A DNA stretch of 64,000 nt from a bacterium (GCA_035307765.1 DATGHU010000034.1:1-64000); one strand, 5' to 3'. Shown: positions 24,882-63,341, counted from the stretch's first letter. Made by a program: numbers and translations. The notes: generated by a model not told the origin, from the letters alone.

Positions 24882-25802
24882 TCAGACGAGCGGCAGCAGG
24901 ACCCCGACGACGAGGAGCACTCCGAACACCAGATGCACGCGCGCGGCCGCGACGTCGAGCATGACGAGATCGTGCGGGGCGCGCGCCGCGTGGACCTGCC
25001 GCGCCAGCCCCCAGGCAAGCGGCGCGCTCAGCACGACGAGCGCCGACCCCCTGACGAAGGTCCCCGTCAGCACCCCGCCGATCACCAGAGCGTACGCGGC
25101 GGCCAGAAGCGCGTAGAGCAGGCCCTTCGATCGTTCCAGGCCGAGCGCGCGCGCGACCGTGACCCCGCCGTCGTGACCGTCCGACCGAATATCGCGGATG
25201 TTGTTCACGTGGAGGATCGCCGTGACCAGGCACCCGACGGGCAGGGCGTAGAGCATTGGCACGAGCTCGATCACCCGGGCCTGCACAAAATAGGCGCCGA
25301 GTACCATGAGCGGGCCGAAAAGCAGGAAGATCACCGGGTCGCCGAGCGCCCGGTATTTGTAGGCGACCGGCCGGCCGGAATAGAAGTAGGCGCCGAGGGC
25401 GCCGAGCATCCCCAGCACCAGGATCGGGGTGCCCCGAATCGCCGTGAGGTAGAGGCCGATCGCGACGTTACAGGCCAGGAAGACCAGTCCGGCCAGGAAG
25501 ACCTCGCTGGGCTGGAGGATTCCCCGGATGAGCACGCCGCTGCCGCCGAAGGATTCAGCGGTATCGTGGCCGTCGCAGTAGTCGAAGTAATCGCTGAAGA
25601 GGTTGGCCGCACCCTGGATGGCCACCGCGCCGAGGAGGGTGAGGACGAGCAGCCCCGGGTTGAGCATGCCCTGCGCCGCCGCCATGCCCGTCCCCAGCAA
25701 CACGGGAACGATCGACGCCGTAAAGGAGAAGGGACGGACCGCCTGCACCCACATCCGGGCGGTCCGAGGAGGGAGCCCAGACTCGATGGACCGTTCGGTC
25801 AT
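24882..25802 (-). CDS. menA: 1,4-dihydroxy-2-naphthoate polyprenyltransferase-like (MenA)
   Basis: A 306-residue UbiA-superfamily prenyltransferase with about eight to nine membrane helices. The first aspartate-rich motif is NLFSDYFDYCDGHDT near residue 68-82 and the second is NNIRDIRSDGHDGGVTVA near 200-218. This pair of motifs is the MenA pattern: it attaches the polyprenyl chain to dihydroxynaphthoate in menaquinone synthesis. Start ATG 25802 has GGAGAGG upstream and an extended -10 element at 25841-25849. No other men genes are near. A related UbiA enzyme is possible but less likely. Confidence 0.87.
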   Translation of the reverse strand: MTERSIESGLPPRTARMWVQAVRPFSFTASIVPVLLGTGMAAAQGMLNPGLLVLTLLGAVAIQGAANLFSDYFDYCDGHDTAESFGGSGVLIRGILQPSEVFLAGLVFLACNVAIGLYLTAIRGTPILVLGMLGALGAYFYSGRPVAYKYRALGDPVIFLLFGPLMVLGAYFVQARVIELVPMLYALPVGCLVTAILHVNNIRDIRSDGHDGGVTVARALGLERSKGLLYALLAAAYALVIGGVLTGTFVRGSALVVLSAPLAWGLARQVHAARAPHDLVMLDVAAARVHLVFGVLLVVGVLLPLV

Positions 25803-37333: not shown

Positions 37334-38788
37334 TCACTTCTCGATTTGAATGTTGATGTGCTTCAGCTCGGTGTACTCAAACAGGCCTTCCAGCCCGTAC
37401 TGGCGTCCCAGGCCCGATTGCTTAAACCCGCCCATCTCGGTCGACTGGAACATCTTCCCAAACGTGTTGACCCAGACCGATCCGGCCCGGACGCGGGTGG
37501 CGATCTTCATGGCCTTGTTGATGTCGCGGGTCCAGACCGCGGCGACGAGGCCGTACACGGTGTTGTTCGCGATATGGATCGCCTCGTCCAGGTCCTTGAA
37601 GGTGGTGATCCCCATCACCGGCCCGAAGATTTCCTCCTGGGCGATTTTTGCGTCGGGCTTCATCTGATCAAACACGGTCGGCGCGATGAAATACCCCTTG
37701 GCCAGCGCGCCCTCGGTCAAGCGGTGACCCCCGGTCACGAGCACGGCCTCCCGTTTGCCCTGTTCGATGTAGCCGGTGACCTTCTGGAGCTGCGGCTCCG
37801 AGATCACGGGGCCAACCTCGACGCCCTTCTCCCAGCCCGGCCCCACCTTCAGCTTTGGCACCATTTCCCGGACGCGCTGGACGAACGTGTCGTGGATGCT
37901 CGCCTCCACCAACACCCGTGTGCCGGCGATGCAGATCTGGCCGGCGTTGTAGAAGGAGGCGGCGTTGATCGCCCCCCGAATCGCGCGCTCGAAGTTGGCA
38001 TCGGCGAACACGATCGTCGGAGACTTGCCGCCGAGTTCGAGTGAAACTTTCTTCAGGTTGCCGGCGGCGAGCCGCATGATCTCGCGCCCGGTGGCGGTGT
38101 CGCCGGTGAAGGCCACCATGTCGACGTCGTGGTGCCGGGCGAGTTCGGCGCCGACGGGATCGCCGGGACCGGTCACGATGTTCACGATCCCCTTGGGGAA
38201 CTCCGCGATCCCCTCGATGATCTTCGCGAGCTCGACGGTGGACCCCGCGGTGTAACTCGCCGGCTTGACCACGACCGCGTTGCCCGCGGCCAGCGCCGGC
38301 CCGATCGCACGCGCGAGCAGCGCGAGGGGAGCGTTCCAGGGCACGATGATCCCGACCACCCCGGCCGGCTCGCGCATGATCAGGCTGATGCTGTTCGGCT
38401 GCGGAGTCTGCGACCGTCCGAAGATCCATCGGGCCAGGCCGGCAAAGTAGCTCGTCGTCTCCGCGAGCCGCATCGCCTCACCGCGGCTGATCGGGGACGG
38501 CTTGCCGCTCTCGCGCGTGAGCAGCTGCGCCAGCTCTTCATGCCGGGCGCGGACGGCCTCGGAGAACTTGAGGAGGGCCGTGGTCCGCGTGCTGGGGTCG
38601 TCCCGCCACTCCGTGGTCTCGAACGCGGCGCGCGCCGCCGCGATCGCCGCCCGCATGTCGTCCACCGTGGACCGCTGCGCCCGGTAGACCAGCGCGCCGT
38701 CTCCGGGGCTCGTCACCTCGAAGAGGCCGCCGGTGGACTCGCGCCACTCCCCGGCGATGAAGTTCCTGTAGGTCGTCACCTCTGCCAT
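37334..38788 (-). CDS. Aldehyde dehydrogenase family protein
   Basis: A 484-residue NAD(P)-dependent aldehyde dehydrogenase. Motifs: PWNAPLALLARAIGPALAAGN (cofactor), FTGDTATGREIM, the general-base glutamate in LELGGKSP and the nucleophilic cysteine in FYNAGQICIAGTR. It ends with SGLGRQYGLEGLFEYTELK, normal for the family. It is the last gene of the minus-strand operon that holds paaABCD and the CoA transferase genes. It could oxidise an aldehyde of the aromatic pathway, for instance 4-hydroxybenzaldehyde or the ring-opened semialdehyde handled by PaaZ in other bacteria. The substrate is inferred from context only. Confidence 0.93.
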   Translation of the reverse strand: MAEVTTYRNFIAGEWRESTGGLFEVTSPGDGALVYRAQRSTVDDMRAAIAAARAAFETTEWRDDPSTRTTALLKFSEAVRARHEELAQLLTRESGKPSPISRGEAMRLAETTSYFAGLARWIFGRSQTPQPNSISLIMREPAGVVGIIVPWNAPLALLARAIGPALAAGNAVVVKPASYTAGSTVELAKIIEGIAEFPKGIVNIVTGPGDPVGAELARHHDVDMVAFTGDTATGREIMRLAAGNLKKVSLELGGKSPTIVFADANFERAIRGAINAASFYNAGQICIAGTRVLVEASIHDTFVQRVREMVPKLKVGPGWEKGVEVGPVISEPQLQKVTGYIEQGKREAVLVTGGHRLTEGALAKGYFIAPTVFDQMKPDAKIAQEEIFGPVMGITTFKDLDEAIHIANNTVYGLVAAVWTRDINKAMKIATRVRAGSVWVNTFGKMFQSTEMGGFKQSGLGRQYGLEGLFEYTELKHINIQIEK

Positions 38789-41595: not shown

Positions 41596-41819
41596 GCGTG
41601 GGCGTCCACGGCCTCGCTGCGGACGGACTCCACCGGGATCACCGCCTGCCGCGGCACCACGTACATCTCGATCCACGACTCCTCGTCGTAGATGCTGCGC
41701 GCGTACACCCGCGCCAAGGCATCGTCGGGCGCGGCAACGCACCCGACGTGGCGGAGCGGTTCGCCGTCCGTCCGGCGGGCGAACACCTCGTAGACCGGCT
41801 CGTCCCCGATCGTCCTCAC
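41592..41819 (-). CDS. paaB: Phenylacetyl-CoA epoxidase subunit PaaB
   Basis: A 75-residue protein, shorter than the about 95 residues of enteric PaaB. It has PVYEVFARRTDGEPLRHVG, then ARVYARSIYDEESWIEMYVVP, the typical small-subunit pattern. PaaB bridges the PaaAC heterodimers. GTG 41819 overlaps the paaD stop (GTGA) and its own stop overlaps paaC (ATGA), so translation is tightly coupled. Confidence 0.9.
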   Translation of the reverse strand: MRTIGDEPVYEVFARRTDGEPLRHVGCVAAPDDALARVYARSIYDEESWIEMYVVPRQAVIPVESVRSEAVDAHA

Positions 41820-42187
41820 ACCGCCACCCCGCAGCGGGCCAGTTCCCGACGCGCCACATCGGTCAACCGGTCCTTCGTCCAGGGAGGGTCCCAGGACACG
41901 ACGATCCTGACGTCACGCACCCCCGGCAGCCGATGGAGCCGCTCGCGGATATCTTCCTGGATCATCTCCATGCACGGGCACGCGGTCGCCGTGAAGGTCA
42001 AGGTCAGGCTCACCGTCCCCCCGTCGACCGCGACCCCGTAGACCAGGCCCATGTCCACGATGCTGACCGGCCACTCGGGGTCGACCACCTCGGCCAGGGC
42101 GGCCAGGACCGCGTCCGGGGTCACCGCCTGAGGTCCCGCCGCCCCGCGGCGCTCCTGGGGATCCGCCGAGCCAAGGGAGACCGGCAT
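41816..42187 (-). CDS. paaD: PaaD N-terminal MIP18-like domain
   Basis: A 123-residue DUF59/MIP18 protein: EVVDPEWPVSIVDMGLVYGV, TFTATACPCMEMIQEDIRE with the Cys-Pro-Cys of this group, and VVSWDPPWTKDRLTDVAR. MIP18-type proteins help insert Fe-S clusters or metals into target enzymes; in the paa pathway PaaD matures the epoxidase. The zinc-ribbon half is a separate gene (40614-40829). It starts 2 bp after paaA. Confidence 0.9.
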   Translation of the reverse strand: MPVSLGSADPQERRGAAGPQAVTPDAVLAALAEVVDPEWPVSIVDMGLVYGVAVDGGTVSLTLTFTATACPCMEMIQEDIRERLHRLPGVRDVRIVVSWDPPWTKDRLTDVARRELARCGVAV

Positions 42188-42189
42188 GG

Positions 42190-43122
42190 TCAGTGCGCCC
42201 CCACCAACTGCCGCATCTGCCGGCGTCCCCGCTGCAGCATCTCGATGAACATCGCGTTCCCCGGCCCCCGCCGCTTCCAGCGGGCGATCACGTCGTCCCA
42301 CGTGATCGGCCGATCCATCAGCCAGCGCCGTTCCCCCTCGTCGAAGTCCACCGGGAGCGGGTAATCCAGCAGATACGACCCGGTCGCCTGATCGTGGTGG
42401 GCGGGCACGCGGAACCCGAGGCTCTCGCACAGCGGCACCGCGGTGCGCAGCCAGGTCTGACGGAGCTGGTCGTTCGTGCTTCCCTTCAGCCGGTATCCGA
42501 TCTGCGTACCGTGGGTCTTCAGGGAATCGGGCAGCCCGAACCACTCCACCGTCATCGGGAACATCCAGTCGATCGCCCGCTGGAGCTCGTCCCGGTGGGT
42601 GGCGGCCAGCCGCCGCATGCCGTTCTCCCCGTGGCGGAGGTGGAAGTTTTCCTCCTTGTCGACCTTCGCCAGCCCGCGGCGCCACGGCCCGTAGCTGCAG
42701 TGCTTGTAGACGTCCCCGAGGAGCACATAGCCGGCCCGATCGTAGAAGGCGTTGGCCACGATCAGTTCGATCCAGGATCGGAGCGGCACGTCGAAGGCGT
42801 AGGGATGCTTGAACTTCTTCGGATCGCGGTCGTAGATCAGCGCCTCGGTATCCACCCCCAGATCCTGGAGGATCCGATAGCCGATGTGCGCGTGGCTCAA
42901 CTCGTCCTGGATGATCGCCAGCGCCGAGATCAGGTTGTTCATCGAAGGGCTGTTCTTGGCGGCGGTGTAGTAGCTGGGGGCGCTAATCAGCTCCGTGTCG
43001 GCGGAAACGGTGAGGATGTGGATGAGGGTCTGCCGATACTCGTCGGTCATCTCCTGGGGCGACTCCACGATGTGCCCCTGGCTGATCCGGTCGAGCAGCT
43101 GCTCGTTGGTGACGATCGGCAT
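42190..43122 (-). CDS. paaA: Phenylacetyl-CoA epoxidase catalytic subunit PaaA
   Basis: A 310-residue diiron oxygenase subunit. The ferritin-like bundle shows IIQDELSHAHIGYRILQDLG and KVDKEENFHLRHGENGMRRL, which supply the carboxylate and histidine iron ligands, and VEWFGLPDS near residue 200. In other bacteria PaaABCE converts phenylacetyl-CoA to the 1,2-epoxide using O2. ATG 43122 is chosen (MPIVTNEQLL); the GTG at 43164 in frame has no ribosome-binding site. It is the first gene of the operon and is read divergently from paaX. The electron donor gene paaE is not in the window. Confidence 0.93.
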   Translation of the reverse strand: MPIVTNEQLLDRISQGHIVESPQEMTDEYRQTLIHILTVSADTELISAPSYYTAAKNSPSMNNLISALAIIQDELSHAHIGYRILQDLGVDTEALIYDRDPKKFKHPYAFDVPLRSWIELIVANAFYDRAGYVLLGDVYKHCSYGPWRRGLAKVDKEENFHLRHGENGMRRLAATHRDELQRAIDWMFPMTVEWFGLPDSLKTHGTQIGYRLKGSTNDQLRQTWLRTAVPLCESLGFRVPAHHDQATGSYLLDYPLPVDFDEGERRWLMDRPITWDDVIARWKRRGPGNAMFIEMLQRGRRQMRQLVGAH

Positions 43123-43182
43123 CGCCCGCACCCCCGCCGGCGAAACATGACACGGTTTTTGCACGAACAGATAAGAATGCGT

Positions 43183-45048: not shown

Positions 45049-46629
45049 TCACGAACGCGCGGAGGGCTGACGGCGCGCGCCGGCCAGCCGCTCGCGAAGG
45101 CGGAACCGCTGGATCTTCCCCGTCGCCGTCTTGGGCAGCTCCGGGACGAACTCGATCCAACGCGGATACTTGTATGCCGCGATCTTGTCGCGGACGAACC
45201 CCTGCAGCTCCACCGCCAGTGCCTGGCTCGGGGCCTGCCCCGGCTTTAGGACCACAAACGCGAACGGCTTGACCAGATCATCCTTGTCGGTCTGCCCGAC
45301 AACGCCGCACTCCAGCACGGCGGGGTGCTGCATCAGGGTCGCCTCAACCTCGGTGGGCGACACCCACTGGCCCCCGGCCTTCAGCATGTCGTCGGACCGG
45401 CCGCCGTACCAAAAGTACCCGTCGGCGTCCCGGTAATACTTGTCGCCGCTGGCGAACCACTTTCCGCGGAAGGCCTCCCTGGTGCGCTCGTGCTTGTTCC
45501 AATACCCGGGAGCGACGCTGTCCCCGCTGACGAGGAGATCTCCGATCTCGCCCGCCGGCAACTCCCCTCCGCCCTCGTCCACGATCGTGACCGCGTACCC
45601 GGGAACGACCTCCCCGCTGCTCCCCGGCCGGACCCGGCCCGGGCGGTTGCTGATATAGATGTGCAGGGCTTCGGTCGAGCCGATCCCGTCGAGAATCTCC
45701 ACCCCGAACCGATCCTTCCACCTCGTGAAGATCGCCGCCGGCAGGGGCTCCCCGGCGGAGACGCAGAGGCGGACGGCCCCGAGATCCTTGGGACCGTCCG
45801 CGGCCAGCATCGCCGCGTAGGCCGTGGGGACGCCGAAGAACAACGTCGGCCGGTACCGCCGGATGAGGTCGAAGTACGTCCGGGGGTCGAACCGCCCGGG
45901 GTACAGCACCGACGACGCCCCCACCCGAAGCGGGAAGTACAGCGCGTTTCCCAGCCCATAGGCGAAGTAGAGCTTGGCGATGGAGAGGCACACGTCGTCT
46001 TCGCGGATCTCCAGGACGGTCCGCGCGTAGAGATCGGCGGCAAAGACCATGTCGTGGTGGAGGTGAATCGTGCCCTTGGGGGCGCCGGTGCTGCCGCTGC
46101 TCCAGAGCCAGAACGCCGGCTCGTCCCGGTGGGTCGACGCGGGGACGAGCTCGGCCTCGGCCTCGGTCAGCAGATCGCCGAGGGCGTGCTGACCCCTCCC
46201 CGGGATCCCGGCCACGATGACGTGGCGGAGCGCGGGCAGCTCCCCCAGCACCGGCTGCACGAGCGGCAGGAGCTCCTGGCTGACGACGAGCACAGCCGCC
46301 CGGCTGTCCCGGAGCATGTAGGCGTAGTCGGAAGATTTAAGCGCGGTGTTGGTGGGGACGGCGATCGCGCCGATGCGGATCGCCCCCCAGAACAGGGCGG
46401 CGAGATCGGGGGCATCGAGCATCAGGAGAAACACCCGCTCTTCCGGCCGCACCCCGAGCGCGCGGAGCGCGTTCCCCGCCCGGCTCACCCGGGCCAGCAG
46501 CTCGCCGTAGGTGACCCGCTCGTCGCCCGCTCGGATCGCGACCCGGTCTCCCCGCCCCTGCTCCAGGTTTCGGTCAAGAAACGCGGTGGAGACGTTAAAG
46601 GCTTCGGGGAGCTCGATCGCCGCGCTCAT
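45049..46629 (-). CDS. Benzoate-CoA ligase family acyl-CoA synthetase
   Basis: A 526-residue ANL-superfamily enzyme that activates an aromatic carboxylate with ATP and CoA. The P-loop is WSSGSTGAPKGTIHLHHDM, an arrangement typical of benzoate/4-hydroxybenzoate-CoA ligases. KLYFAYGLGNALYFPLRVGA and DGIGSTEALHIYISNRPG shape the aryl pocket, and LPKTATGKIQRFRLRE carries the catalytic lysine of the C-terminal domain. Whether benzoate, 4-hydroxybenzoate or phenylacetate-like acids are used cannot be read directly; the HCR-like genes nearby favour 4-hydroxybenzoate. Confidence 0.9.
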   Translation of the reverse strand: MSAAIELPEAFNVSTAFLDRNLEQGRGDRVAIRAGDERVTYGELLARVSRAGNALRALGVRPEERVFLLMLDAPDLAALFWGAIRIGAIAVPTNTALKSSDYAYMLRDSRAAVLVVSQELLPLVQPVLGELPALRHVIVAGIPGRGQHALGDLLTEAEAELVPASTHRDEPAFWLWSSGSTGAPKGTIHLHHDMVFAADLYARTVLEIREDDVCLSIAKLYFAYGLGNALYFPLRVGASSVLYPGRFDPRTYFDLIRRYRPTLFFGVPTAYAAMLAADGPKDLGAVRLCVSAGEPLPAAIFTRWKDRFGVEILDGIGSTEALHIYISNRPGRVRPGSSGEVVPGYAVTIVDEGGGELPAGEIGDLLVSGDSVAPGYWNKHERTREAFRGKWFASGDKYYRDADGYFWYGGRSDDMLKAGGQWVSPTEVEATLMQHPAVLECGVVGQTDKDDLVKPFAFVVLKPGQAPSQALAVELQGFVRDKIAAYKYPRWIEFVPELPKTATGKIQRFRLRERLAGARRQPSARS

Positions 46630-52144: not shown

Positions 52145-53164
52145 CTACCCCCACCCGCCCCCGGGCGCCCCCTCGAACGGCAGGCCGGCGAGTTCTCGGA
52201 GGGCCCGCTGCACATAGATCCGGGCCATTTTCTTCCGATAGCCGATCGTCAGATCGGCGTTGTCCAACGGCTTCGCCGGCTGGAACGCCGCCTGTGCCGC
52301 CCGGTCGATCAGATCGGGCGTCGGCCGCTGTCCTCTGAGCAGCGCGGCGGCGGCGTCGGCCACGACCGGATGCGAGGCCACGGCCCCGAGAACGATTCGG
52401 GCGTCTGCGATGCTCCCGTCTTCGGCGAACCGCAGCGCCGCGGCCACCCCGAGCACGGGAAAGTCGAACGACCCCCGACGGCGGAGCTTCCAGTAGGTCG
52501 TGCGCCACCCGTCCGCGGGCGGCAGCAAGATCTCGGTGAGGATCTCATCCGGCGCCTTGGCGAGGTACTGCATCCCGTCGTTGCGGAAGAGGGCCGCGGC
52601 GGGGATTTCGCGTTCGCCCCCGGGCCCGATCACGCGGATCCGGGCATCGAGGGCGATGACGACGGGAGCGGTGTCCGTGGACGAGAGGGCCCAGCACCGC
52701 GAGCTGCCCGGGGCGACGAGGCAGATCTCGCCGTCCTTCTTCATGCAGAAGCCGATCGACTTCCGCCAATGGTAGGTCTGATTATAGTAGTTGCACCGCG
52801 TGTCGAGGCAGAGGTTGCCGCCGAGCGTCCCCATGTTCCGGAGCGGCGGCGTGCTGACGGCGCCGGCCGCCAGCGCGAGCGCGCGGTACCCCGCGGCGAT
52901 TTCGGGGTGCCCGGTGAGGCCGGCCAACGTCACCCCCGCCCCGATCGCCATACCGCGGCGCCGGTCCCCGGCGATTCGGTCGAGTCCGCGCACCCCCCGG
53001 AGGCCGATGACCACCGCGGGCTCGAATTGCCGCCGCTTCATGTTCGGGTAGAGGTCGGTGCCCCCCGCCACCACCATCCCCCGGGGCCCGGCATCGGCGA
53101 GGCGACGGACCGCCTCGTCGATGCCGGTGGGGGCGACGTAGATGAACGGCGGCAGACGGAGCAT
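52145..53164 (-). CDS. 4-hydroxybenzoyl-CoA reductase-like FAD/[4Fe-4S] subunit
   Basis: A 339-residue FAD-binding subunit of a xanthine-oxidase-family enzyme. VVAGGTDLYPNMKR and PPLRNMGTLGGNLCLDTRC bind FAD. What separates it from CoxM-type subunits is a cysteine-rich insertion: Cys124, Cys140, Cys148 and Cys157 (plus Cys119), spaced 16, 8 and 9, the same spacing I recall for the extra [4Fe-4S] cluster of Thauera HcrB. That cluster lets the enzyme work in the reductive direction, removing the phenolic hydroxyl of 4-hydroxybenzoyl-CoA. ATG 53164 shares one base with the large-subunit stop (TGATG). Confidence 0.85.
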   Translation of the reverse strand: MLRLPPFIYVAPTGIDEAVRRLADAGPRGMVVAGGTDLYPNMKRRQFEPAVVIGLRGVRGLDRIAGDRRRGMAIGAGVTLAGLTGHPEIAAGYRALALAAGAVSTPPLRNMGTLGGNLCLDTRCNYYNQTYHWRKSIGFCMKKDGEICLVAPGSSRCWALSSTDTAPVVIALDARIRVIGPGGEREIPAAALFRNDGMQYLAKAPDEILTEILLPPADGWRTTYWKLRRRGSFDFPVLGVAAALRFAEDGSIADARIVLGAVASHPVVADAAAALLRGQRPTPDLIDRAAQAAFQPAKPLDNADLTIGYRKKMARIYVQRALRELAGLPFEGAPGGGWG

Positions 53165-55671
53165 CAGATATCCTCCGCCGTGGCGCGCGGCTCCCGGGTG
53201 CGGGGCCGGGCATCGGTGCGGTCGGTGCCGGTGTGGAGGGTGAGCGGCAGCCCCTTCTCGCCGCCGGCGATCGGGGCGCCCGCGCGCCACGGCGTCTCCC
53301 AACCCGCGGGAGGCGCCACTTTGATCGGGTCGCGGAAGGTGAAGCGCGGAACGCCGCGCGGACCCACGCGCCCCTCCCCCCCCTGGCGTTTCTGCTCGAG
53401 CGCGGCCAGGACTTTATCGGGGGAGATCGGGATTTCGTCGATCCGGACGCCGACCGCGTCATAGACCGCGTTGGCCAGCGCGGGGATCACCGGCAGCAGC
53501 GGACCTTGCCCCGCCTCCTTGGCCCCAAACGGACCTTCCGGATCGTCCGTGTTGACGAGGATCGTCTCCACCGGCGGCATCTCGAGAAATGTCGGGCTCT
53601 TGTACTCCAGCATCGAGGGGATCTTGTGCAAGCCTTTGCGGAAGATCTGCTCCTCCATCAGCGCTTCGCCCAGCGCCATGTAGACGCTCCCCTCGATCTG
53701 GCCGATGACGAGCGTTTCGTTGATCGCGCGCCCGATGTCGTGCGCGATCCAGACCTGATCGACCCGAACGTCGCCCGTCCCTCGGTCGACGCGGACCCCG
53801 ACGACCGCCGCGGAGAACGAGTAGGCGGGCGAGGGACCGACCCCGGATCCCTTGAACGGTCCGGCCAGCTTGGGCGGCCGGTAGGAGCCGACCGTGGTCA
53901 GCGTGCCGAACATCGCCTCGGCGAGCGCGGCGGCCTCGGGAAACGACACCCCTCGATCGGAGGCGGCGCGGTGATGGATGCGATGGTCGCCGACCGCGAG
54001 GTCATCGGGCTCAATCTCGAGGTGCTCCGAGACCGCGGCGAGGAGCAGGTCCCGCATCTTCTGCGCCGCCTCGACGGCGGCGTTGCCCGCCATGAACGTC
54101 ACGCGGCTGCTGTAGGAGCCCAGGTCGATCGGGGTAAGATCGGTATCCGCGGTGACGAGACTGATCTCGTGGGGGTCGAGGCCGAGCACTTCGGCGACGA
54201 TCCCGCTCAGGACCGAGTCGCTGCCCTGGCCGATGTCGATCGCTCCGCAGGAGACGATCACCCCACCGCCGCGGTCGACCCGGATCTGAACCTCGCTGTG
54301 GGGCATGTCGTTCCAGTAGATGGGGAGCCCCGCACCGCTGAGGTACGTGCTGATCGCCAGCCCCACCCCCCGTCCGTCGGGCAGGTGGCCGTGCTTCTCG
54401 CGAAATCCGCTCGCGGTCACGACCCGGTCGATGCACTCCCGCAAGCCGTTGCTGGTGATGCGGAGGTGGTTCACCGTCCGCGTAAAGGGGACGGTGGCAT
54501 TGACGAGCCGGATCGCCGCGGGGTCGAGCCCGAGGTCGGCCGCCAGCTTGTCCATCTGAATCTCGATGCCGAACCGGGGCTGCGGGGTGCCGTGTCCTCG
54601 TTTCGGGCCGCACGGCGGTTTATTGGTCCAGAGGCGCGTCCCCTCGAATTTGTAGGCGGGAATCGTGTAGGTCACCGTCTGCAGCGCGCCGGTGTAGTAG
54701 GTGCTGGCGATTCCGTAGGAACCGTAGGCGCCCCCGTCCAGGAACGTCTTGAAGTGGCAGGCCGTGATCCGGCCGTCGCGCCTGACCCCGGTGCGGATCC
54801 ACATCAGCACGGGGTGCCGGCCGCGGTGGGCGTAGAACACCTCTTCGCGGGTCAGCGTGATCTTCACCGGCCGTCCGGCGAGCATCGCCAGCTTCGCCGC
54901 GCAGATCTCGTGGCTGAACGGGTCGCTCTTCCCCCCGAACCCGCCGCCGACCGGCGTCGCGATCACCCGGATCCTGGCCATCGGCAGGTCGAGGACCTTC
55001 GCCAGGGCCCGATGCACGTAGTGCGGGGTCTGGGAAGAGGTCCACAGGGTCAGCCGCCCGTTGGCCTCGACCTGGCCCACCGCGCTGTGCTGCTCCATCG
55101 GCAGGTGGGTGTTGCCCTGGAAGAAAAACACGTCCTCGCGGATATGATCCGCCTCGGCGAACCCCCCCGCGAGATCGCCAAACTCCAAGGAGACATTCTT
55201 GTGGACGTTGGGGACGGGACCGTCGCCGTACTCCTGCACCCGGACCTCCGTCTCCCCGACCGCATCTTCGATGGTCATGACCGCGGGGAGCGGCTCGTAC
55301 TCCACCTCGATCGCCTCGCACGCCCGCTCGGCGGTCTCCTCGTCGGCGGCGGCGACGGCGGCGATGGGATCGCCCACGTACCGGACCTTCTCCAGGCAGA
55401 GCGCCTCCTCGTCTTGGCTGCTCGGCATGATGCCGAACCTGACGGGAAGGTCGGTCCCGACAATCACGGCGTGCACCCCGGGCAAGGCGCGGGCACGGGA
55501 CACGTCGAGCCGCTTCAGCCGGGCGTGAGGCAGGTGGCTGCGCAGGAGCTTCCCGTAGAGCATTCGGGGAAGGATGAGGTCGTCCGCAAAATGCGTCTCG
55601 CCGGTCGTCTTCGCGGGTCCGTCGACCTTCGCCCACGGCCGGCCGATGAACCGGTATCCGTTCCCGCTCAC
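53164..55671 (-). CDS. 4-hydroxybenzoyl-CoA reductase-like molybdenum subunit
   Basis: An 835-residue molybdopterin-cytosine-dinucleotide subunit. Cofactor loops are VGGGFGGKSDPFSHE, CGPKRGHGTPQPRFG and GQGSDSVLSGI, and the active-site glutamate region is PFGAKEAGQGPLLPV, which resembles HCR-type enzymes rather than the GAKGVGE of xanthine dehydrogenases. GTG 55671 overlaps the small-subunit stop (GTGA). The last 70 residues are an Arg/Pro-rich extension of no known domain. Expected reaction: reductive dehydroxylation of 4-hydroxybenzoyl-CoA to benzoyl-CoA, or hydroxylation of another aryl or N-heterocyclic substrate. Confidence 0.82.
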   Translation of the reverse strand: MSGNGYRFIGRPWAKVDGPAKTTGETHFADDLILPRMLYGKLLRSHLPHARLKRLDVSRARALPGVHAVIVGTDLPVRFGIMPSSQDEEALCLEKVRYVGDPIAAVAAADEETAERACEAIEVEYEPLPAVMTIEDAVGETEVRVQEYGDGPVPNVHKNVSLEFGDLAGGFAEADHIREDVFFFQGNTHLPMEQHSAVGQVEANGRLTLWTSSQTPHYVHRALAKVLDLPMARIRVIATPVGGGFGGKSDPFSHEICAAKLAMLAGRPVKITLTREEVFYAHRGRHPVLMWIRTGVRRDGRITACHFKTFLDGGAYGSYGIASTYYTGALQTVTYTIPAYKFEGTRLWTNKPPCGPKRGHGTPQPRFGIEIQMDKLAADLGLDPAAIRLVNATVPFTRTVNHLRITSNGLRECIDRVVTASGFREKHGHLPDGRGVGLAISTYLSGAGLPIYWNDMPHSEVQIRVDRGGGVIVSCGAIDIGQGSDSVLSGIVAEVLGLDPHEISLVTADTDLTPIDLGSYSSRVTFMAGNAAVEAAQKMRDLLLAAVSEHLEIEPDDLAVGDHRIHHRAASDRGVSFPEAAALAEAMFGTLTTVGSYRPPKLAGPFKGSGVGPSPAYSFSAAVVGVRVDRGTGDVRVDQVWIAHDIGRAINETLVIGQIEGSVYMALGEALMEEQIFRKGLHKIPSMLEYKSPTFLEMPPVETILVNTDDPEGPFGAKEAGQGPLLPVIPALANAVYDAVGVRIDEIPISPDKVLAALEQKRQGGEGRVGPRGVPRFTFRDPIKVAPPAGWETPWRAGAPIAGGEKGLPLTLHTGTDRTDARPRTREPRATAEDI

Positions 55672-56162
55672 CGGCCGTCTCCCTCCCCGCGGCCGCCCCG
55701 CATCCGTGCGGCCGCCAGTTCCACAGCCTCTAAAATCTTGAGGTAGCCGGTGCATCGGCACAGGTTGCCGGCGAGCGACTCGGCCACCTCCTGCCTGGTC
55801 GGGGTCGGGGTGCGATCCAGCAGGGCCTTCGCCGCGAGGAGGATCCCCGGGGTGCAGTAGCCGCACTGTGCCGCCCCGAGTTCGGTGAAGGCGACTTGGA
55901 GGGGGTGCAGATGGCCCCCGCCGGCCAGCCCCTCCACCGTCGTGATCTGGTGTCCCTGGAGCTCCACCGGCAGGGCAAGGCAGCTCAGCACAGGAGTTCC
56001 GTCGACGAGCACGGTACAGGTACCGCACTCCCCCAGTTCGCACCCGTGCTTGGTCCCGGTAAGCCCCAAGTCCTCGCGCAGCACCTCGAGGAGCGTCTTG
56101 TGCACCGGCACGATCAGGTCGTGGTCCTCTCCGTTGACCCGGAGCCCGAGCGTCGTCTTCAC
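55668..56162 (-). CDS. Molybdenum hydroxylase [2Fe-2S] subunit (HcrC/CoxS-like)
   Basis: A 164-residue iron-sulfur subunit with two [2Fe-2S] clusters: Cys41, Cys46, Cys49 and Cys61 (plant ferredoxin type, CELGECGTC), and Cys100, Cys103, Cys135 and Cys137 (CGYC ... CRCTGY). GTG 56162 has AAGGAGGAG upstream and overlaps the IclR stop (GTGA). It transfers electrons between the molybdenum centre and the FAD/[4Fe-4S] subunit. It is the first structural gene of the HCR-like operon. Confidence 0.92.
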   Translation of the reverse strand: MKTTLGLRVNGEDHDLIVPVHKTLLEVLREDLGLTGTKHGCELGECGTCTVLVDGTPVLSCLALPVELQGHQITTVEGLAGGGHLHPLQVAFTELGAAQCGYCTPGILLAAKALLDRTPTPTRQEVAESLAGNLCRCTGYLKILEAVELAAARMRGGRGEGDGR

Positions 56163-56980
56163 GCCGGTCTCCTCCTTCCCCCCATCGATCCCTCGCGCGG
56201 GACGGCCAGCGACGCCGACAGGGTTCTGGCCGCCGAGCGCAGCGGCCCGGCCAGTCGGCGCAGGGAGCCCGGCGAGACCCGCGCGCACACGGCTACGACG
56301 GATAGCGCCCCGATCGCCTCGGCGGAGCGAGCGGGCGTCCCGCGGAACACGGGGGCGGACAGGGCGCAGACCCCCGGCAGGTACTCCATCGCATCGATGG
56401 CCACGCCGGCCCGGCGGACCCGCTCCAGCTCCCGTCGGTAGCGCCCGGGATCTCGGATCGACCGGGGGGTGTAGGCGGGCAGCCGGGAAGGCAGATCGTC
56501 CCCGGGGGCCGCGAACGCCCAGAGCACCTTGGCGACAGATCCGGCGAGCGGCGGGAGGCGGTGGCCGTGGGGGGCGGTGACCTTGAGCTGCTGCGGAGAT
56601 TCTTCGCTCGCCGCGATCACGCTGCCCGCGCCGTCTCGCAGGTGCAGCGTCACCGTCTCGCCCGACACACGGCGCAGGCGAAGCAGGTGAGGGCGCGCGA
56701 GCGCGCCGAGGTCCTGTCGATCCAGCGCCGCGCGGCCCAATGCGGCAACCGCCGGACCGAGCCGGTAGCGCCTGGTCGCGGGGTCGCGCTCGACCAGCCG
56801 GTGCCGCGCCAGCGTCGTGAGGATGCCGTGGGCGGTGCTCTTGTGAATCCGGAGGAGGCGCGCCAGATCAGTGAGGGTGCCGCCTCCCGGACCGCGGCTC
56901 AACACCTCGAGGATCCCGGCCGCCCGATCGACGGCGGGCACCGCACCGTTGTGCCTCTGGGGGACCGCGACCGCGGACAT
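56159..56980 (-). CDS. IclR-family transcriptional regulator
   Basis: A 273-residue regulator. The N-terminal winged helix is seen as AVDRAAGILEVLSRGPGGGTLTDLARLL and RIHKSTAHGILTTLARHRLVE; the C-terminal effector domain has RLRRVSGETVTLHLRDG and LPPLAGSVAKVLWAF. ATG 56980 follows AAGGAG; a longer frame to 57004 is less likely. The stop overlaps the start of the HCR small-subunit gene, so it is expressed with the enzyme it probably controls. Two tandem TCCCGCGGG palindromes lie 60-80 bp upstream. The effector is probably an aromatic acid or CoA ester, an inference from context. Confidence 0.9.
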   Translation of the reverse strand: MSAVAVPQRHNGAVPAVDRAAGILEVLSRGPGGGTLTDLARLLRIHKSTAHGILTTLARHRLVERDPATRRYRLGPAVAALGRAALDRQDLGALARPHLLRLRRVSGETVTLHLRDGAGSVIAASEESPQQLKVTAPHGHRLPPLAGSVAKVLWAFAAPGDDLPSRLPAYTPRSIRDPGRYRRELERVRRAGVAIDAMEYLPGVCALSAPVFRGTPARSAEAIGALSVVAVCARVSPGSLRRLAGPLRSAARTLSASLAVPREGSMGGRRRPA

Positions 56981-57040
56981 GCGTCTGTTCTCCTTGGCGA
57001 ACAAGAGTTATTTGGACAGAACAACGCATACCCACGATAT

Positions 57041-58188: not shown

Positions 58189-59832
58189 GTGGCGATCCCG
58201 GTCCTGACGCGGCCCGCCGTGCTGCCGAAAGGGGTCAGCCCTCGCACGTTCAGCCGGGCGATCCGCGAGTTCACCCGCATCGTCGGCGACCGCAACGTCT
58301 CGGTGTCCTCCGCCGAACTCGTCCCCTACGCCCACGACGTCATCATGATCCCCCCGATCTGGCCGTCCGCGGTGGTCCGCCCCGGCTCGGTCGAAGAGAT
58401 CCAGCGGGTCGTCCGCGTCGCCAACGCGCTCCGGATCCCGCTGTGGCCGCTCAGCACCGGGAAGAACATCGCCTACGGGCGGATGATGGCGGTGGACGGG
58501 GGAAACGTCATCCTCGACCTCGGCCGGATGAACCGAATCCTCGAGATCAACGAACCCCTTGCCTATGCGGTCGTCGAGCCCGGGGTCACCTACGCCCAAC
58601 TGTACAAGCACCTGCGCGAGCGCAACCTGCCGCTGTGGCTCGACCCCCCCGCAACGGCGCCGGGGGCGGGCCCGCTCGGCAACACCGTCGAGCGCGGCGT
58701 CGGCTACACGCCGTACGGCGAGCACTTCCTCTTCTCCTGCGGGATGGAGATCGTGCTCCCCGACGGCCGGCTGCTGCGCACCGGCTCCGGGGCGCTCCCG
58801 GGATCCCGCACCTGGCACATCTTCAAGTGGGGGTTCGGCCCGTACCTCGATGGGCTCTTCACCGCAAGCAACTACGGCATCGTCACCAAGCTCGGGATCT
58901 GGCTGATGCCGGAGCCTCCCGCCTACCAGCCCATCCTGATGACGTTCCCGAACGAGGACGACATCGGCGCGATCATGGACTTCCTCCGCCCCCTCAAGAT
59001 CACGCACCTCCTGCCGAGCGCCGTGGTCGTGGCCCACGCGCTGCTTGCGCTGGCCGCGGAGGCGGACTACCCATGGCATCTCACCGGCGGCACGCGGCCG
59101 GTACCGGAAGACTGGGTGCGGGCGGAAGCGGCCAAGCGGATGCTCGACACGTGGAACGTCGCCGGCTGCGTCTACGGCTCTCCCGCAGTCGTCGCCGAGG
59201 TCGCCGCGACCGTGCGGCGGAAGGTCGCCGCCGAGCTCCCGCACGCCCGGGTGCTGGACCTGGACGAAGCGCTCCAGAGCCCGTACTGGGACCACAAGGT
59301 GCGCAACATGACGGGAGTGCCTTCCATGATCGAGTACGGCCGGCTGTCGTGGCGGGGGGGCGGGAACGCGTTCGTCGCCCCGGTGGTGCCGTTGTACGGT
59401 GCGGAGGCGGCGAAGCACATGGAGATCGCCCGGCCGCTCTTCCAAAAGTACGGGTTTGATTACATCGGCGAGTTCATCGCCGCCTCCCGCGACCAACACC
59501 ACGTCATGATGCTCCTCCACAAGCAGCCGGAAGAGATGGACCGGGCCCGGCGCTGCTACCGGGAGCTGACCGACGCGTTTTGCGACCAAGGCTACCTGCC
59601 CTATCGGACCAACGTGGCATTCATGGAACACACGATGAGCCGGCTGGATCCCGTCTTCCAGGATGTCTGCATGCGGATCAAGGAGGCGCTCGATCCGAAC
59701 GGCATCCTGGCCCCCGGCAAGAACGGGATCCGGCTCCCGCCCCCCCGCCGCAGCGGACGCACCCTGACGAGGCGGGCGCGGCGGCCGGCCTCGAGAAAAT
59801 CGCGCCGGCCCGGCGGCGGGCGAAGCCGATGA
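58189..59832 (+). CDS. 4-cresol dehydrogenase / vanillyl-alcohol oxidase-type flavoprotein
   Basis: A 547-residue FAD protein of the VAO/PCMH family. The PP-loop region is WPLSTGKNIAYGR, NRILEINEPLAYAVVEPGVT follows, and the subfamily hallmark is WGFGPYLDGLFTASNYG next to TKLGIWLMPEPP (about 214-245). GYLPYRTNVAFMEHTM near residue 465 holds the conserved Arg of the active site. Such enzymes oxidise or hydroxylate 4-alkylphenols at the benzylic carbon (p-cresol to 4-hydroxybenzyl alcohol or aldehyde). GTG 58189 follows GGAAGGGAG. An unusual Arg-rich tail (last 35 residues) precedes the coupled Fe-S protein gene. There is no cytochrome partner. Confidence 0.88.
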   Translation: MAIPVLTRPAVLPKGVSPRTFSRAIREFTRIVGDRNVSVSSAELVPYAHDVIMIPPIWPSAVVRPGSVEEIQRVVRVANALRIPLWPLSTGKNIAYGRMMAVDGGNVILDLGRMNRILEINEPLAYAVVEPGVTYAQLYKHLRERNLPLWLDPPATAPGAGPLGNTVERGVGYTPYGEHFLFSCGMEIVLPDGRLLRTGSGALPGSRTWHIFKWGFGPYLDGLFTASNYGIVTKLGIWLMPEPPAYQPILMTFPNEDDIGAIMDFLRPLKITHLLPSAVVVAHALLALAAEADYPWHLTGGTRPVPEDWVRAEAAKRMLDTWNVAGCVYGSPAVVAEVAATVRRKVAAELPHARVLDLDEALQSPYWDHKVRNMTGVPSMIEYGRLSWRGGGNAFVAPVVPLYGAEAAKHMEIARPLFQKYGFDYIGEFIAASRDQHHVMMLLHKQPEEMDRARRCYRELTDAFCDQGYLPYRTNVAFMEHTMSRLDPVFQDVCMRIKEALDPNGILAPGKNGIRLPPPRRSGRTLTRRARRPASRKSRRPGGGRSR

Positions 59833-61193
59833 CGCGGCGGCGCGGGCCGGTCGGCAAGGACCTCACGCGTGAGATCGAGGCGAAAGGGATCAACCTCTTC
59901 GAGTGCTACACCTGCCGGCTGTGCACCGAAGAGATGAACCGGGGGATTCTGACGCTGACCGAACCCTACCGCCAAGCGTTCGGCGAGACGGAGTGGCGTC
60001 GGGACATCTTCAACGAGCCCGTCTGCCCGACCTGGGACTATTATCGCCACGAAGCGTACACGGCGTACGGCCGCGCGCTGATGGCCCGAGACCTCGGCGA
60101 CGGCCTTGAAGTGGATCCGCGGGACCCGCGGATGCGGGAGGTGGTCTACACCTGCCTCCTCTGCACCGGATGCCAGGAGCTCTGCTTCTCACGCAACCGG
60201 GTGCCCCTGATGAAGCACGACATGCAGCTGCCGCGTGAGGTCTGGGATCTCCACGGCATCCTGCTCGCGAAGCGCAAGTGGCTCTTCGACAAGTTCGGGT
60301 GGGACGTCGTCCCCGCGGGGCTGCGGGCACTCGCCCAGCGCCTCATCAGGACGGGGACGTCGACCGGAGAGCCCGGGCGCGCGGCGACGCGCTGGGTGAA
60401 GGCCACGCGGAGCGGCACCGTGGACCTGAGCCGCGACGGACGGGCGGACGTCCTCCTCCTGCTTGACGGCACCGCCCCGTACGATCGGGGCACATGGCCG
60501 GCCCTGGCCGCGGCGGTCCGGCTGCTGCTGGCCTCTGGACTCACGGTCGGCACGCTCGGCGCGGATGAGATCGCGACGAGCCTCCCCGTGCTTGCGGCGG
60601 GGGACGTGCAGAGCTATCTCCGGATCAACCGGGAGGCGATTCGCCGGGTCGCCACCGTCGTCCGGCGGGCGGGGGTCAAACAGGTCGTCACGGTGGACGA
60701 CACGGGCTTTGCGGCCTGGACCGCGCCGGCGAAACACTACGGGGTGGCCGAGGAGGTGAGCTTCCCCTTCGCCCATCTCATCCCGTTTCTGCACACGCTG
60801 CTCGAGGACGGACGGCTGCGCCTGACCCGTCCGGTCGACAAAGAAGTGGCTCTGCTCGACAGCTGTCATCTCGGCCGCTACTGCAAAGTGCTCGACGCCC
60901 CGCGGGCGATCCTGGCGCGCGTGCCCGGGCTCCGCGTCCGTGAGGCCCACCTCAGACGTGAATACCTCTACTGCTGCGGCGCCGCCGCGGGGGTGCCCGA
61001 CGCCTATCCCGAGCAGGCCGATTGGTGGGGCCGAAAGCGCCTAGGGCAGGCCGCGGAGGTGCTGGCGCAGGGGCGCACCGTGGTGACGACCTCACCGATC
61101 TGCGGCGCGCACCTCAGACGGACCGCCGCAGCCGAGGGAACGGGCATCGAGGTCAAAGATCTGGCCGAGGTCGCCGCGCTGGCGCTGGCCTAG
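59829..61193 (+). CDS. Fe-S/CCG-domain protein, HdrD/GlpC/GlcF-like
   Basis: A 454-residue electron-transfer protein. The first ferredoxin-like motif is CYTCRLC (Cys26, Cys29, Cys32) but lacks its usual fourth cysteine; the second, CLLCTGCQELC, is complete. The C-terminal half has a CCG-type domain with DSCHLGRYC, YCCGAAAG and SPICGAH. Such proteins accept electrons from a flavoprotein (GlcD, GlpA, HdrD partners) and pass them to quinone or heterodisulfide. Its ATG overlaps the flavoprotein stop (ATGA, 59829-59832), so the two are made together. It probably replaces the cytochrome of classical 4-cresol methylhydroxylase. Confidence 0.85.
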   Translation: MTRRRGPVGKDLTREIEAKGINLFECYTCRLCTEEMNRGILTLTEPYRQAFGETEWRRDIFNEPVCPTWDYYRHEAYTAYGRALMARDLGDGLEVDPRDPRMREVVYTCLLCTGCQELCFSRNRVPLMKHDMQLPREVWDLHGILLAKRKWLFDKFGWDVVPAGLRALAQRLIRTGTSTGEPGRAATRWVKATRSGTVDLSRDGRADVLLLLDGTAPYDRGTWPALAAAVRLLLASGLTVGTLGADEIATSLPVLAAGDVQSYLRINREAIRRVATVVRRAGVKQVVTVDDTGFAAWTAPAKHYGVAEEVSFPFAHLIPFLHTLLEDGRLRLTRPVDKEVALLDSCHLGRYCKVLDAPRAILARVPGLRVREAHLRREYLYCCGAAAGVPDAYPEQADWWGRKRLGQAAEVLAQGRTVVTTSPICGAHLRRTAAAEGTGIEVKDLAEVAALALA

Positions 61194-61250: not shown

Positions 61251-62414
61251 TTGCATCGGGTATCGCGAAGGATCATGGTCCTCGGTCTCGCCGCCGCGCT
61301 TGCCGCCGGCGTATCCGTCCCCGCGCGGCCGGCGCTCGGCCAGGGCGGGCCGATCAAGATCGGCACGGTGTTCGCCGTAACGGGCCCGGCCAGCTCGCTC
61401 GGCAAGCCCGAGAAGGACACGGCGACGATGCTGCAGGCCCAGCTCGCCGCCTCGGGTGGAATCGGCGGCCGGCCGGTCCAGATCATCACCTACGACAGCG
61501 AGACCGACCCCACGAAAGCGGTCCTGCTGATCAAAAAGGCGGTCAGCGAGGACAACGTCGTCGCCGTGGTGGGCGGGACGACGAGTCCGGAGTCCCAGGC
61601 GATGGCGGACTACGCGATGTCCGCCGAGATCCCGTTCATGTCGGTGGCGGCCAGCACGACGTTGAGCATTCCCACCCGGGCCTGGGTGTTCCAGATGCCG
61701 CAGCGGAACGCCACGGCGGCGGCCAAGGCGTTGGAGTACCTCGTGGCTGTCCACGCGAAGACGTTTGCGTTCCTCTATCGAAACGATGACTTCGGCCAGG
61801 ACGGCCTTGTCGCGCTCCGAACCTACGGCCTCCACCAAGGGGTAACGCTCGTAGACACCGAGCCGTTTGCGGCCACGGACACGGACCTCAGTGTTCAGGT
61901 CGCCCGCGCCCGGGTCAAGAATCCCGACGCGATGGTCGTGTGGAGCACGCCGCCGACCGCCTCGATCGCGGCGAAGAACATTCGCCAGCTCGGGATGAAG
62001 ACCCCGATCCTAGAGAGCCACGGCATCGCCAACCGGGCGTTCATCCAGCTCGCGGGACCGGCCGCGGACGGCGTCGTGTTTCCGTCCGGCAAGCTCCTGG
62101 TCGTCGACAAGCTATCGGCAAAGGACCCGCAGAAGGCGCTTCTCCAGAAGTACGCCAAGGATTTTGACGCGGCCAACCACTACGGGGCCAATACCTTTGG
62201 GGGGCACGCGTTCGACGGGATCACGATGCTCGTTGACGCGATCCGGCACGTCGGCCCCGACAAGGTGAAGATTCGCGAGTACCTGGAACGCCTCAAAGGC
62301 TTCGTGGGAACCGGCGGGGTCTTCAACATGTCGCCGCAAGATCACAACGGGTTGACCACCAACGACATGGTGCTGGTGGTGATCAAGGGCGGCAACTGGG
62401 ACATCTGGAAGTAG
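61251..62414 (+). CDS. Branched-chain-type ABC substrate-binding protein
   Basis: A 387-residue periplasmic-binding protein of the LivJ/Leu-Ile-Val family. A signal peptide spans about 1-31. IKIGTVFAVTGPASSLGKPE, YDSETDPTKAVLLIKK and VVAVVGGTTSPESQAMA are typical of the fold, and LYRNDDFGQDGLVALR lies in lobe two. Start TTG 61251 has AAGGGGGGG about ten nt upstream; the ATG seven nt upstream is out of frame. Many members in aromatic degraders bind benzoate-like compounds, so uptake of the cresol or aromatic substrate is plausible. It is followed by livH- and livM-like permeases. Confidence 0.92.
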   Translation: MHRVSRRIMVLGLAAALAAGVSVPARPALGQGGPIKIGTVFAVTGPASSLGKPEKDTATMLQAQLAASGGIGGRPVQIITYDSETDPTKAVLLIKKAVSEDNVVAVVGGTTSPESQAMADYAMSAEIPFMSVAASTTLSIPTRAWVFQMPQRNATAAAKALEYLVAVHAKTFAFLYRNDDFGQDGLVALRTYGLHQGVTLVDTEPFAATDTDLSVQVARARVKNPDAMVVWSTPPTASIAAKNIRQLGMKTPILESHGIANRAFIQLAGPAADGVVFPSGKLLVVDKLSAKDPQKALLQKYAKDFDAANHYGANTFGGHAFDGITMLVDAIRHVGPDKVKIREYLERLKGFVGTGGVFNMSPQDHNGLTTNDMVLVVIKGGNWDIWK

Positions 62415-62422
62415 CGGAGACC

Positions 62423-62458
62423 GGGGGTGGGCCCGGCCGCGCGGCCGGCCCATCCCCC
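62423..62458 (+). repeat. Imperfect stem-loop between binding protein and permease genes
   Basis: GGGGGTGGGCC and GGCCCATCCCCC flank the core GGCCGC/GCGGCC, forming a long GC-rich hairpin with small bulges. No U-tract follows. It may protect the binding-protein message and lower permease expression, and it makes a permease start at GTG 62427 unlikely. Confidence 0.55.
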
Positions 62459-62465
62459 ACCGACC

Positions 62466-63341
62466 GTGCTTGCCCTCCTGCCCCAACTGCTCCTCACCGG
62501 CATCACCGTCGGCAGCATCTACGCCCTCGGCGCCCTCGGCTTCGTGCTCATCTACTCCGTGACCGGAATCCTGAACTTCGCCCAGGGGGAGTTCTCCATG
62601 CTGAGCGCGCTCGTGTGCGCGACCCTCCTGGCGTGGCACCTGCCGCTCGGGCTTGCGGCGTGCGGGGCCATCACGGCGGTCTGCCTCGTCGGCGCGCTCA
62701 CCGAACGGCTGGCGATCCAACCGGCGTTCGGCGGCGCCCCGCTCACGCTGCTCATCATCACCTTCGGGGTGTCGATGGCGTTTCGCGGCCTCGCCCTGAT
62801 GGTCTGGGGCGCGGATCCCTACACGCTGCCGGAGTTCACGCCCGGCCCCCCGCTTGTGCTGCTCGGCGGGGTGCTCGTCCGCCAGGCGATTTGGGCGATC
62901 GGCCTCTCCGGGGCCGTCGTCGTCGGGTTGTTTGCCTTCTTCACCCGCACCGTCCCGGGCGCGGCCGTCCGGGCGTGCGCGGACAACGCCTTCGCCTCCC
63001 GGCTCGTCGGCATCAGCCCGCGACAGATGTCGCTCCTGGCGTTCACCCTGAGCGCCGGGCTCGGGGCGGTGGCGGGGCTCGTCATCACCCCGATCACGGG
63101 GGCGACGTACGACATGGGCCTCGCGCTGGGACTGAAGGGATTTGTCGCCGCGGTCATCGGCGGGCTGGGCAACGCCCCCGCCGCGGTCGTCGGGGGGTAC
63201 CTGGTCGGCGTCATCGAAGCGCTCACGAGCGGGTACCTCTCCCCGGGCTACGGCACCGCCATCACCTTCCTCGTGCTGCTGATCGTCCTGTTCCTGCAGC
63301 GCGAAGGGCTGCTGCACGGAGCTCAGCGGAGACACGCGTGA
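62466..63341 (+). CDS. LivH-type branched-chain ABC permease
   Basis: A 291-residue membrane permease with about eight helices. It begins LLPQLLLTGITVGSIYALGA, and contains VTGILNFAQGEFSML and GVSMAFRGLALMVWG. The transport loop GISPRQMSLLAFTLSAGLG (EAA-like) and GGLGNAPAAVVGGYLVGVIE are near the end. GTG 62466 gives the family length; GTG 62427 has a GGAG site but lies within the hairpin. Its stop overlaps the livM start (GTGA, 63338-63341). Confidence 0.9.
   Translation: MLALLPQLLLTGITVGSIYALGALGFVLIYSVTGILNFAQGEFSMLSALVCATLLAWHLPLGLAACGAITAVCLVGALTERLAIQPAFGGAPLTLLIITFGVSMAFRGLALMVWGADPYTLPEFTPGPPLVLLGGVLVRQAIWAIGLSGAVVVGLFAFFTRTVPGAAVRACADNAFASRLVGISPRQMSLLAFTLSAGLGAVAGLVITPITGATYDMGLALGLKGFVAAVIGGLGNAPAAVVGGYLVGVIEALTSGYLSPGYGTAITFLVLLIVLFLQREGLLHGAQRRHA

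Follow-up and report, generated by a model that had tools for sequence, protein, structure and literature searches.

The gene pair and its two proteins

The 64,000-nucleotide stretch of bacterial DNA analysed here (GCA_035307765.1 DATGHU010000034.1:1-64000, referred to below as the window) carries at positions 58,189 to 61,193 a gene for a flavoprotein of the p-cresol methylhydroxylase/vanillyl alcohol oxidase (PCMH/VAO) type, followed by a gene for an iron-sulfur (Fe-S) protein, and the present work concerns the enzyme which these two genes may encode together. The features of the pair are as follows.

58189..59832, + strand: 4-phenol oxidoreductase-type (PCMH/VAO) flavoprotein, 547 amino acids, GTG start; PDB 1dii, E=7e-140
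59829..59832, + strand: ATGA stop/start overlap of 4 nucleotides, read directly; translational coupling predicted
59829..61193, + strand: Fe-S protein, 454 amino acids, ATG start; CxxCxxC..CP and CxxCxxCxxxC sites, one cysteine-free and one partial CCG domain

The GTG start of the flavoprotein gene is preceded by GGGAG about 7 nucleotides to its 5' side. The best match among solved structures was PchF, the flavoprotein of p-cresol methylhydroxylase (1dii, aligned over residues 9-516, with 43% identity at aligned positions), and the next best were other bacterial 4-phenol oxidoreductases, followed by eugenol and vanillyl alcohol oxidases. The Pfam FAD_binding_4 domain (FAD, flavin adenine dinucleotide) was matched at 9e-28 and FAD-oxidase_C weakly, and the GlcD model TIGR00387, whose cut-off is 568 bits, scored 73, which places the protein outside the GlcD family. 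In the tree, which was rooted at the midpoint so that its branching order is provisional, the flavoproteins of the host's bacterial family formed one clade (100/100) on a long stem (0.69), beside and not inside a group of PchF-type and His-type enzymes (99/98). These sequence comparisons confirmed the flavoprotein as a member of the 4-phenol oxidoreductase branch of the VAO/PCMH flavoproteins. An AlphaFold model of it, made from five near-identical rows, had a mean predicted local distance difference test score (pLDDT) of 38 and was not usable. The active site was compared through an alignment of 30 relatives.

The results showed that Tyr96, Tyr472 and Arg473 occupy the positions of PchF Tyr95, Tyr473 and Arg474, which we take from the known structure to be the phenolate-binding residues, and that Glu382, Glu428, His437 and His438 are retained at the positions of PchF Glu380, Glu427, His436 and His437; all seven are invariant in the family. 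The residues that link the FAD covalently in the known enzymes are replaced, with Leu386 in place of PchF Tyr384 and Asn393 at the position of VAO His422, and all aligned orthologues carry the same Leu and Asn. Since both linking positions are lost, the FAD is predicted from the alignment to be held, probably, noncovalently, for which there is one precedent in the 4-phenol subgroup, nsVAO (PMC7617285). Use of O2 in this subgroup has been tied to a Leu and Asp/Glu pair beside the flavin N5, while dehydrogenases have Pro/Ile with a small residue (PMC7617285). The corresponding pair here, Ala155/Thr156, is not the oxidase pair, and is near to but not the same as Ala154/Pro155 of PCMH. The Gc4EO row of the alignment is unfit as a reference at this pair, where it does not agree with the wild type of PMC7617285; there are several variant entries in the PDB, and the row was taken from one of them.

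In the Fe-S protein, cysteines are found at positions 26, 29, 32, 66, 109, 112, 115, 119, 346, 352, 382, 383 and 425, and among these Cys26, 29, 32 and 66 (CxxCxxC...CP), Cys109, 112, 115 and 119 (CxxCxxCxxxC), and Cys346, 382, 383 and 425 are invariant in eight relatives. The Pfam CCG model (PF02754) matched one domain above its cut-off (34 bits), and Fer4_8, the 4Fe-4S dicluster domain, matched below threshold. From these patterns the protein is predicted to hold two [4Fe-4S] sites and one partial CCG site, the cluster types being read from the motifs. The nearest Fe-S protein outside the family among the sampled genomes is that of locus L067 in G056, the sole genome of its phylum in the sample, and in comparison to it the first CCG domain lacks its cysteines and the second lacks one of five, with Ser422 in place of the first cysteine of CxxC. 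A scan of contigs with just two short patterns taken from the Fe-S alignment returned a single relative, L069, from a metagenome-assembled genome deposited as Bacillota. Scanning the Fe-S protein revealed no clear membrane segment.

The predicted model of the Fe-S protein had a mean pLDDT of 69, is poor over residues 1-139 and is usable only over about 141-454. The fold matched EtfD of M. smegmatis best (E=1.5e-13), and also LutA and HdrB, and the sequence profile of the Fe-S protein family likewise found EtfD (3.6e-43). EtfD, LutA and HdrB are proteins which work beside flavoproteins. For EtfD this has been described in PMC8593149. On account of these matches, the predicted fold and profile of the Fe-S protein resemble those of carriers of electrons between flavoproteins and quinones or thiols. 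The original prediction had described a VAO/4-cresol-type flavoprotein gene overlapping by 4 nucleotides the gene for an HdrD/GlpC-like Fe-S protein with a CCG domain, in a pairing like that of glycolate oxidase GlcDF with a flavoprotein of another family. Both frames were found as described, sharing the ATGA, and the flavoprotein is indeed of the PchF type and clades with 4-phenol enzymes. The results support the predicted pairing as such. The description of the Fe-S protein stood in part, in that a CCG domain is present, but the set of CCG cysteines is incomplete and the closest solved relatives are EtfD, LutA and HdrB and not GlpC.

Conservation of the pair and the search for other partners

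Both genes are carried by six of the 12 genomes of the family (G000, G005, G006, G007, G009 and G011), spread over four genera, and in the other six no close homologue of the flavoprotein or of the Fe-S protein was found. The genes are adjacent in five of the six genomes that carry them; in G011 both lie at contig ends, in orientations that are compatible with adjacency but do not prove it. The ATGA overlap was kept in all five readable junctions (G000, G005, G006, G007 and G009), although the flanking tails had diverged. Between genera, both genes had nonsynonymous divergence (dN) of 0.1-0.2 against synonymous divergence (dS) of 0.7-1.1, with dN/dS of about 0.1-0.2, which by this measure of the aligned sequences places both under purifying selection. 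Because the genes are selected in this way and the ATGA is kept between diverged flanks, we regard the pairing as more than chance.

Two irregular copies of the flavoprotein gene were also observed in the family. The orthologous gene at L060:7594-9192 (G007) has one in-frame TAG, and is either a pseudogene or an assembly error, and a second copy at L064:8812-10234 (G006), with 87% DNA identity and cut by the contig end, is either a paralogue or a product of strain mixture.

About 46 loci of the PCMH/VAO type from outside the family were compared, most of those from the phylum of G318 being seen over 1.5 kb on either side of the match. None of the approximately 46 had an Fe-S partner gene, and at eight a cytochrome c gene lies beside the flavoprotein gene or close to it, these being four loci on plasmids and those of Rhizobium, Roseomonas, G228 and G083. 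The phyla of G056 (one genome) and G084 (four genomes) were searched and nothing was found. In this sampling, the pairing occurs in a single uncultured family. The FAD/Fe-S pairs at L092 and L105 and the FAD gene at L091 were considered as further cases and rejected, since they have no 4-phenol residues and are thus of the GlcD type. The plasmid relatives of PCMH (L120-L123 and L153-L156) have a conserved protein of 125-220 amino acids and of unknown function upstream of the flavoprotein gene, annotated with a twin-arginine translocation signal in Sulfuricurvum; the cluster in the window has no such protein.

The 64 kb of the window, the 15 kb that follow and the parallel clusters have no credible CxxCH cytochrome gene, the window having one doubtful CxxCH frame at 34 kb. 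Eight cytochrome c matches are present in other parts of the genome, of which the nearest is 340 kb away on the same contig. Neither of the two findings that the original prediction had named as refuting it, a lack of conserved linkage and a cytochrome partner nearby outside the window, was thus observed, with linkage kept in six genomes of four genera, G011 being compatible with adjacency only.

Gene cluster and metabolic context

The surroundings of the pair are also conserved in its relatives, in the order HcrC-HcrA-HcrB-like genes with a divergent IclR gene, flavoprotein, Fe-S protein, Liv genes, ApbA/PanE-like gene and KorAB-like genes, with a PaaK-like ligase gene next where the sequence reaches that far; contig breaks hide parts of the cluster in some genomes. 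The features of the window that bear on the context are listed below.

61251..62414, + strand: LivK-type substrate-binding protein, next gene of the presumed operon; NCBIfam Liv match
62427..63341, + strand: LivH-type permease, same presumed operon
56159..57004, - strand: IclR-type regulator, divergent from the flavoprotein gene; Pfam IclR_C and HTH_IclR; same place in G006 and G011
55668..56195, - strand: HcrC-like [2Fe-2S] subunit; TIGR03193, 181 bits, below the cut-off of 258
53164..55638, - strand: HcrA-like molybdenum subunit; TIGR03194, 865 bits, below the cut-off of 995; 83-86% identity in relatives
52145..53164, - strand: HcrB-like FAD subunit; best NCBIfam match TIGR03195, 282 bits, below the cut-off of 404; 1rm6_B, E=7e-56
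45049..46629, - strand: benzoate-CoA ligase family protein, candidate 4-hydroxybenzoate-CoA ligase (CoA, coenzyme A); TIGR02262, 680 bits, above the cut-off of 375
37334..38788, - strand: aldehyde dehydrogenase, candidate 4-hydroxybenzaldehyde dehydrogenase (weak assignment); NCBIfam aldehyde dehydrogenase matches
24882..25802, - strand: MenA, menaquinone prenyltransferase, outside the cluster; TIGR00751, 118.9 bits, above the cut-off of 102.15

The LivK-type protein adjoins the Fe-S gene in five relatives, with 80-82% identity, and 3' of LivH, past the end of the window, follow LivM, LivG/F, ApbA/PanE-like, KorAB-like and PaaK-like genes. The models of 4-hydroxybenzoyl-CoA reductase were the top or nearly the top NCBIfam matches of the Hcr-like proteins. 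In the HcrB-like protein, all four cysteines of the [4Fe-4S] insert align with those of 1rm6_B, and the HcrC-like protein was scored about equally by a glyceraldehyde dehydrogenase gamma model. On another contig (G000:C6), L168:8493-14545 holds a set of BcrC, B, A and D-like genes with dienoyl-CoA hydratase- and BadI-like genes, all scoring below equivalog cut-offs, and by its sequences this set is like a diverged class I benzoyl-CoA reductase. In Thauera, KorAB provides the reduced ferredoxin for benzoyl-CoA reductase (PMC9973337). In general, the gene content of the cluster together with the Bcr-like genes points to a route from a 4-hydroxybenzyl substrate through 4-hydroxybenzoate and 4-hydroxybenzoyl-CoA to benzoyl-CoA. 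The presence of menA suggests that menaquinone is made by the host, and as MqnA/D of the futalosine route were not found, it would come via the classical route.

An upstream short-chain dehydrogenase/reductase gene ending at 57997 was weighed as a further member of the system and rejected, as it was not found at the loci of the relatives. At 40822-43164 the window also carries a pair of PaaA/PaaC-like genes, with PaaX and a CoA transferase as neighbours; the pair scored far below the PaaA/PaaC equivalog cut-offs and is possibly a different acyl-CoA epoxidase.

Proposed enzyme, alternatives and known systems

We propose that the pair encodes a two-subunit 4-hydroxybenzylic dehydrogenase whose electrons pass through Fe-S clusters, most likely to menaquinone, within a cluster feeding benzoyl-CoA, and from the genes and their context we put the probability of this reading at roughly 60%. 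The two proteins would form one enzyme complex acting on a p-cresol-like substrate. The substrate, p-cresol, 4-hydroxybenzyl alcohol or another para-substituted phenol, would be bound by the flavoprotein in phenolate form, and the FAD would take a hydride from the benzylic carbon, after which water would add to the quinone methide to give 4-hydroxybenzyl alcohol and then 4-hydroxybenzaldehyde. The Fe-S subunit, standing in for the cytochrome c of PCMH, would reoxidise the FAD by single electrons through its two [4Fe-4S] clusters and then the partial CCG site, and the electrons would most likely be delivered at the cytoplasmic side to the menaquinone pool, as for GlcF, LutAB and EtfD; in this order of FAD, [4Fe-4S], CCG site and quinone, the last step is the weakest, and delivery to menaquinone is plausible. 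The 4-hydroxybenzaldehyde would be oxidised and activated to 4-hydroxybenzoyl-CoA, which the HcrABC-like enzyme may dehydroxylate to benzoyl-CoA with low-potential electrons from the KorAB-like enzyme.

Several considerations weigh against this proposal. Since all cases belong to one bacterial family, the shared linkage counts as one lineage and not as repeated invention. None of the Hcr- and Bcr-like proteins reaches its equivalog cut-off. The quinone step is left without an identified site, as no clear membrane segment was seen in the Fe-S protein and its gene has no membrane-anchor gene beside it. To our knowledge, p-cresol oxidation is known solely with high-potential acceptors. The comparison at the flavin N5 indicates that some O2 reactivity is possible, since Thr stands where PchF has Pro155, and the P151V exchange gave VAD oxidase activity (PMC7617285).

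The missing membrane segment and anchor gene also speak for an alternative which we consider unlikely, though the strongest of the three weighed here, namely that the same two-subunit dehydrogenase passes its electrons from the Fe-S subunit to a soluble carrier such as an electron transfer flavoprotein (ETF), a ferredoxin-like protein or the Hcr/Kor system. Low-potential HcrABC-like and KorAB-like enzymes are encoded in the same cluster, and for a similar Fe-S/flavin complex, that of BzS1, the authors propose bifurcation and ETF (PMC13416013). With only one FAD subunit, however, the pair offers no obvious site for bifurcation. Reduction of ferredoxin from the p-cresol or benzyl alcohol couple would moreover be uphill, and GlcF serves the quinone pool though it too is not known to have a membrane segment.

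The KorA-like and PaaK-like genes kept in the cluster could also be read as signs of another substrate, for example 4-hydroxymandelate or another acid or alcohol of the side chain, in which case the KorAB-like 2-oxoacid oxidoreductase would convert 4-hydroxyphenylglyoxylate to 4-hydroxybenzoyl-CoA. The Liv transporter would fit an acidic or amino-acid-like substrate, and PadG/PadI of phenylglyoxylate dehydrogenase were among the weak matches. But the general OAFO and PorB_KorB families fit the Kor proteins far better than do PadG/PadI, and KorAB already has a role in the supply of electrons to ring reduction (PMC9973337), so that we hold this substrate to be improbable. It is very improbable that the flavoprotein is a plain O2 oxidase or uses a cytochrome c encoded elsewhere, with the Fe-S gene merely co-transcribed, for although nsVAO is a noncovalent member of the subgroup able to use O2 (PMC7617285) and at least eight matches to cytochrome c were found in the genome, the two genes co-occur strictly with a conserved ATGA overlap, and the flavoprotein has neither the oxidase residue pair nor the equivalent of PchF Tyr384, the FAD link of the cytochrome-coupled enzyme.

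The proposed dehydrogenase shares with PCMH, the PchF/PchC flavocytochrome of Pseudomonas putida (1dii), the flavoprotein fold, the counterparts of Tyr95/Tyr473/Arg474, Glu380, Glu427 and Ala154, and presumably the chemistry, and differs from it in having an Fe-S partner and no cytochrome gene, and in the replacements of Tyr384 by Leu, Pro155 by Thr and Asp440 by Met. The vanillyl alcohol, eugenol and 4-ethylphenol oxidases and nsVAO belong to the same 4-phenol subgroup, nsVAO also with noncovalent FAD (PMC7617285), but they use O2 and have no Fe-S partner, whereas here the linking His is Asn and the Leu and Asp/Glu pair is missing. In GlcDEF, LutAB/LdhH, YdiJ and EtfD, the last being the best fold match, a flavoprotein is likewise paired with a dicluster and CCG Fe-S protein; their flavoproteins, however, are of the GlcD type with strong FAD-oxidase_C, or ETF, while here the flavoprotein is of the PchF type, the CCG sites are partly lost and there is no membrane domain.

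The acceptors named for the 4-phenol subgroup are O2 or cytochrome c only (PMC7617285, PMC11148156), and a full-text literature search gave no case of an Fe-S partner for a PchF-type enzyme, papers beyond the searched literature being possible. We lean towards a third acceptor class in the 4-phenol oxidoreductases, in which a PchF-like dehydrogenase with noncovalent FAD and a dedicated CCG-type Fe-S subunit would connect p-cresol-type oxidation in the cytoplasm both with the quinone pool and with a benzoyl-CoA route of the anaerobic type. If so, 4-phenol oxidation would be placed in the cytoplasm, and an Fe-S-coupled member without both FAD-linking residues would provide a ready test of acceptor choice and flavin potential. 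It would also offer a relative, easier to study, of the flavoprotein/Fe-S complexes that have been proposed for the anaerobic degradation of benzene and are poorly understood.

One of these, the BzS1_12970/80/90 heterotrimer of anaerobic benzene degraders (PMC13416013, 2026), is the nearest published analogue, and yet not the same thing. Both have flavoproteins of the VAO/PCMH superfamily with an Fe-S protein, HdrC-like in BzS1, in an aromatic-degrading context, but BzS1 has two GlcD-like FAD subunits, in comparison to the single PchF-type flavoprotein here. The BzS1 flavoproteins, whose function is unproven, were placed by the authors outside the PchF/VaoA cluster (PMC13416013). A build like that of the BzS1 complex was also observed at L067:3714-8210 (G056), where two FAD oxidase genes are followed by one for a dicluster/CCG Fe-S protein.

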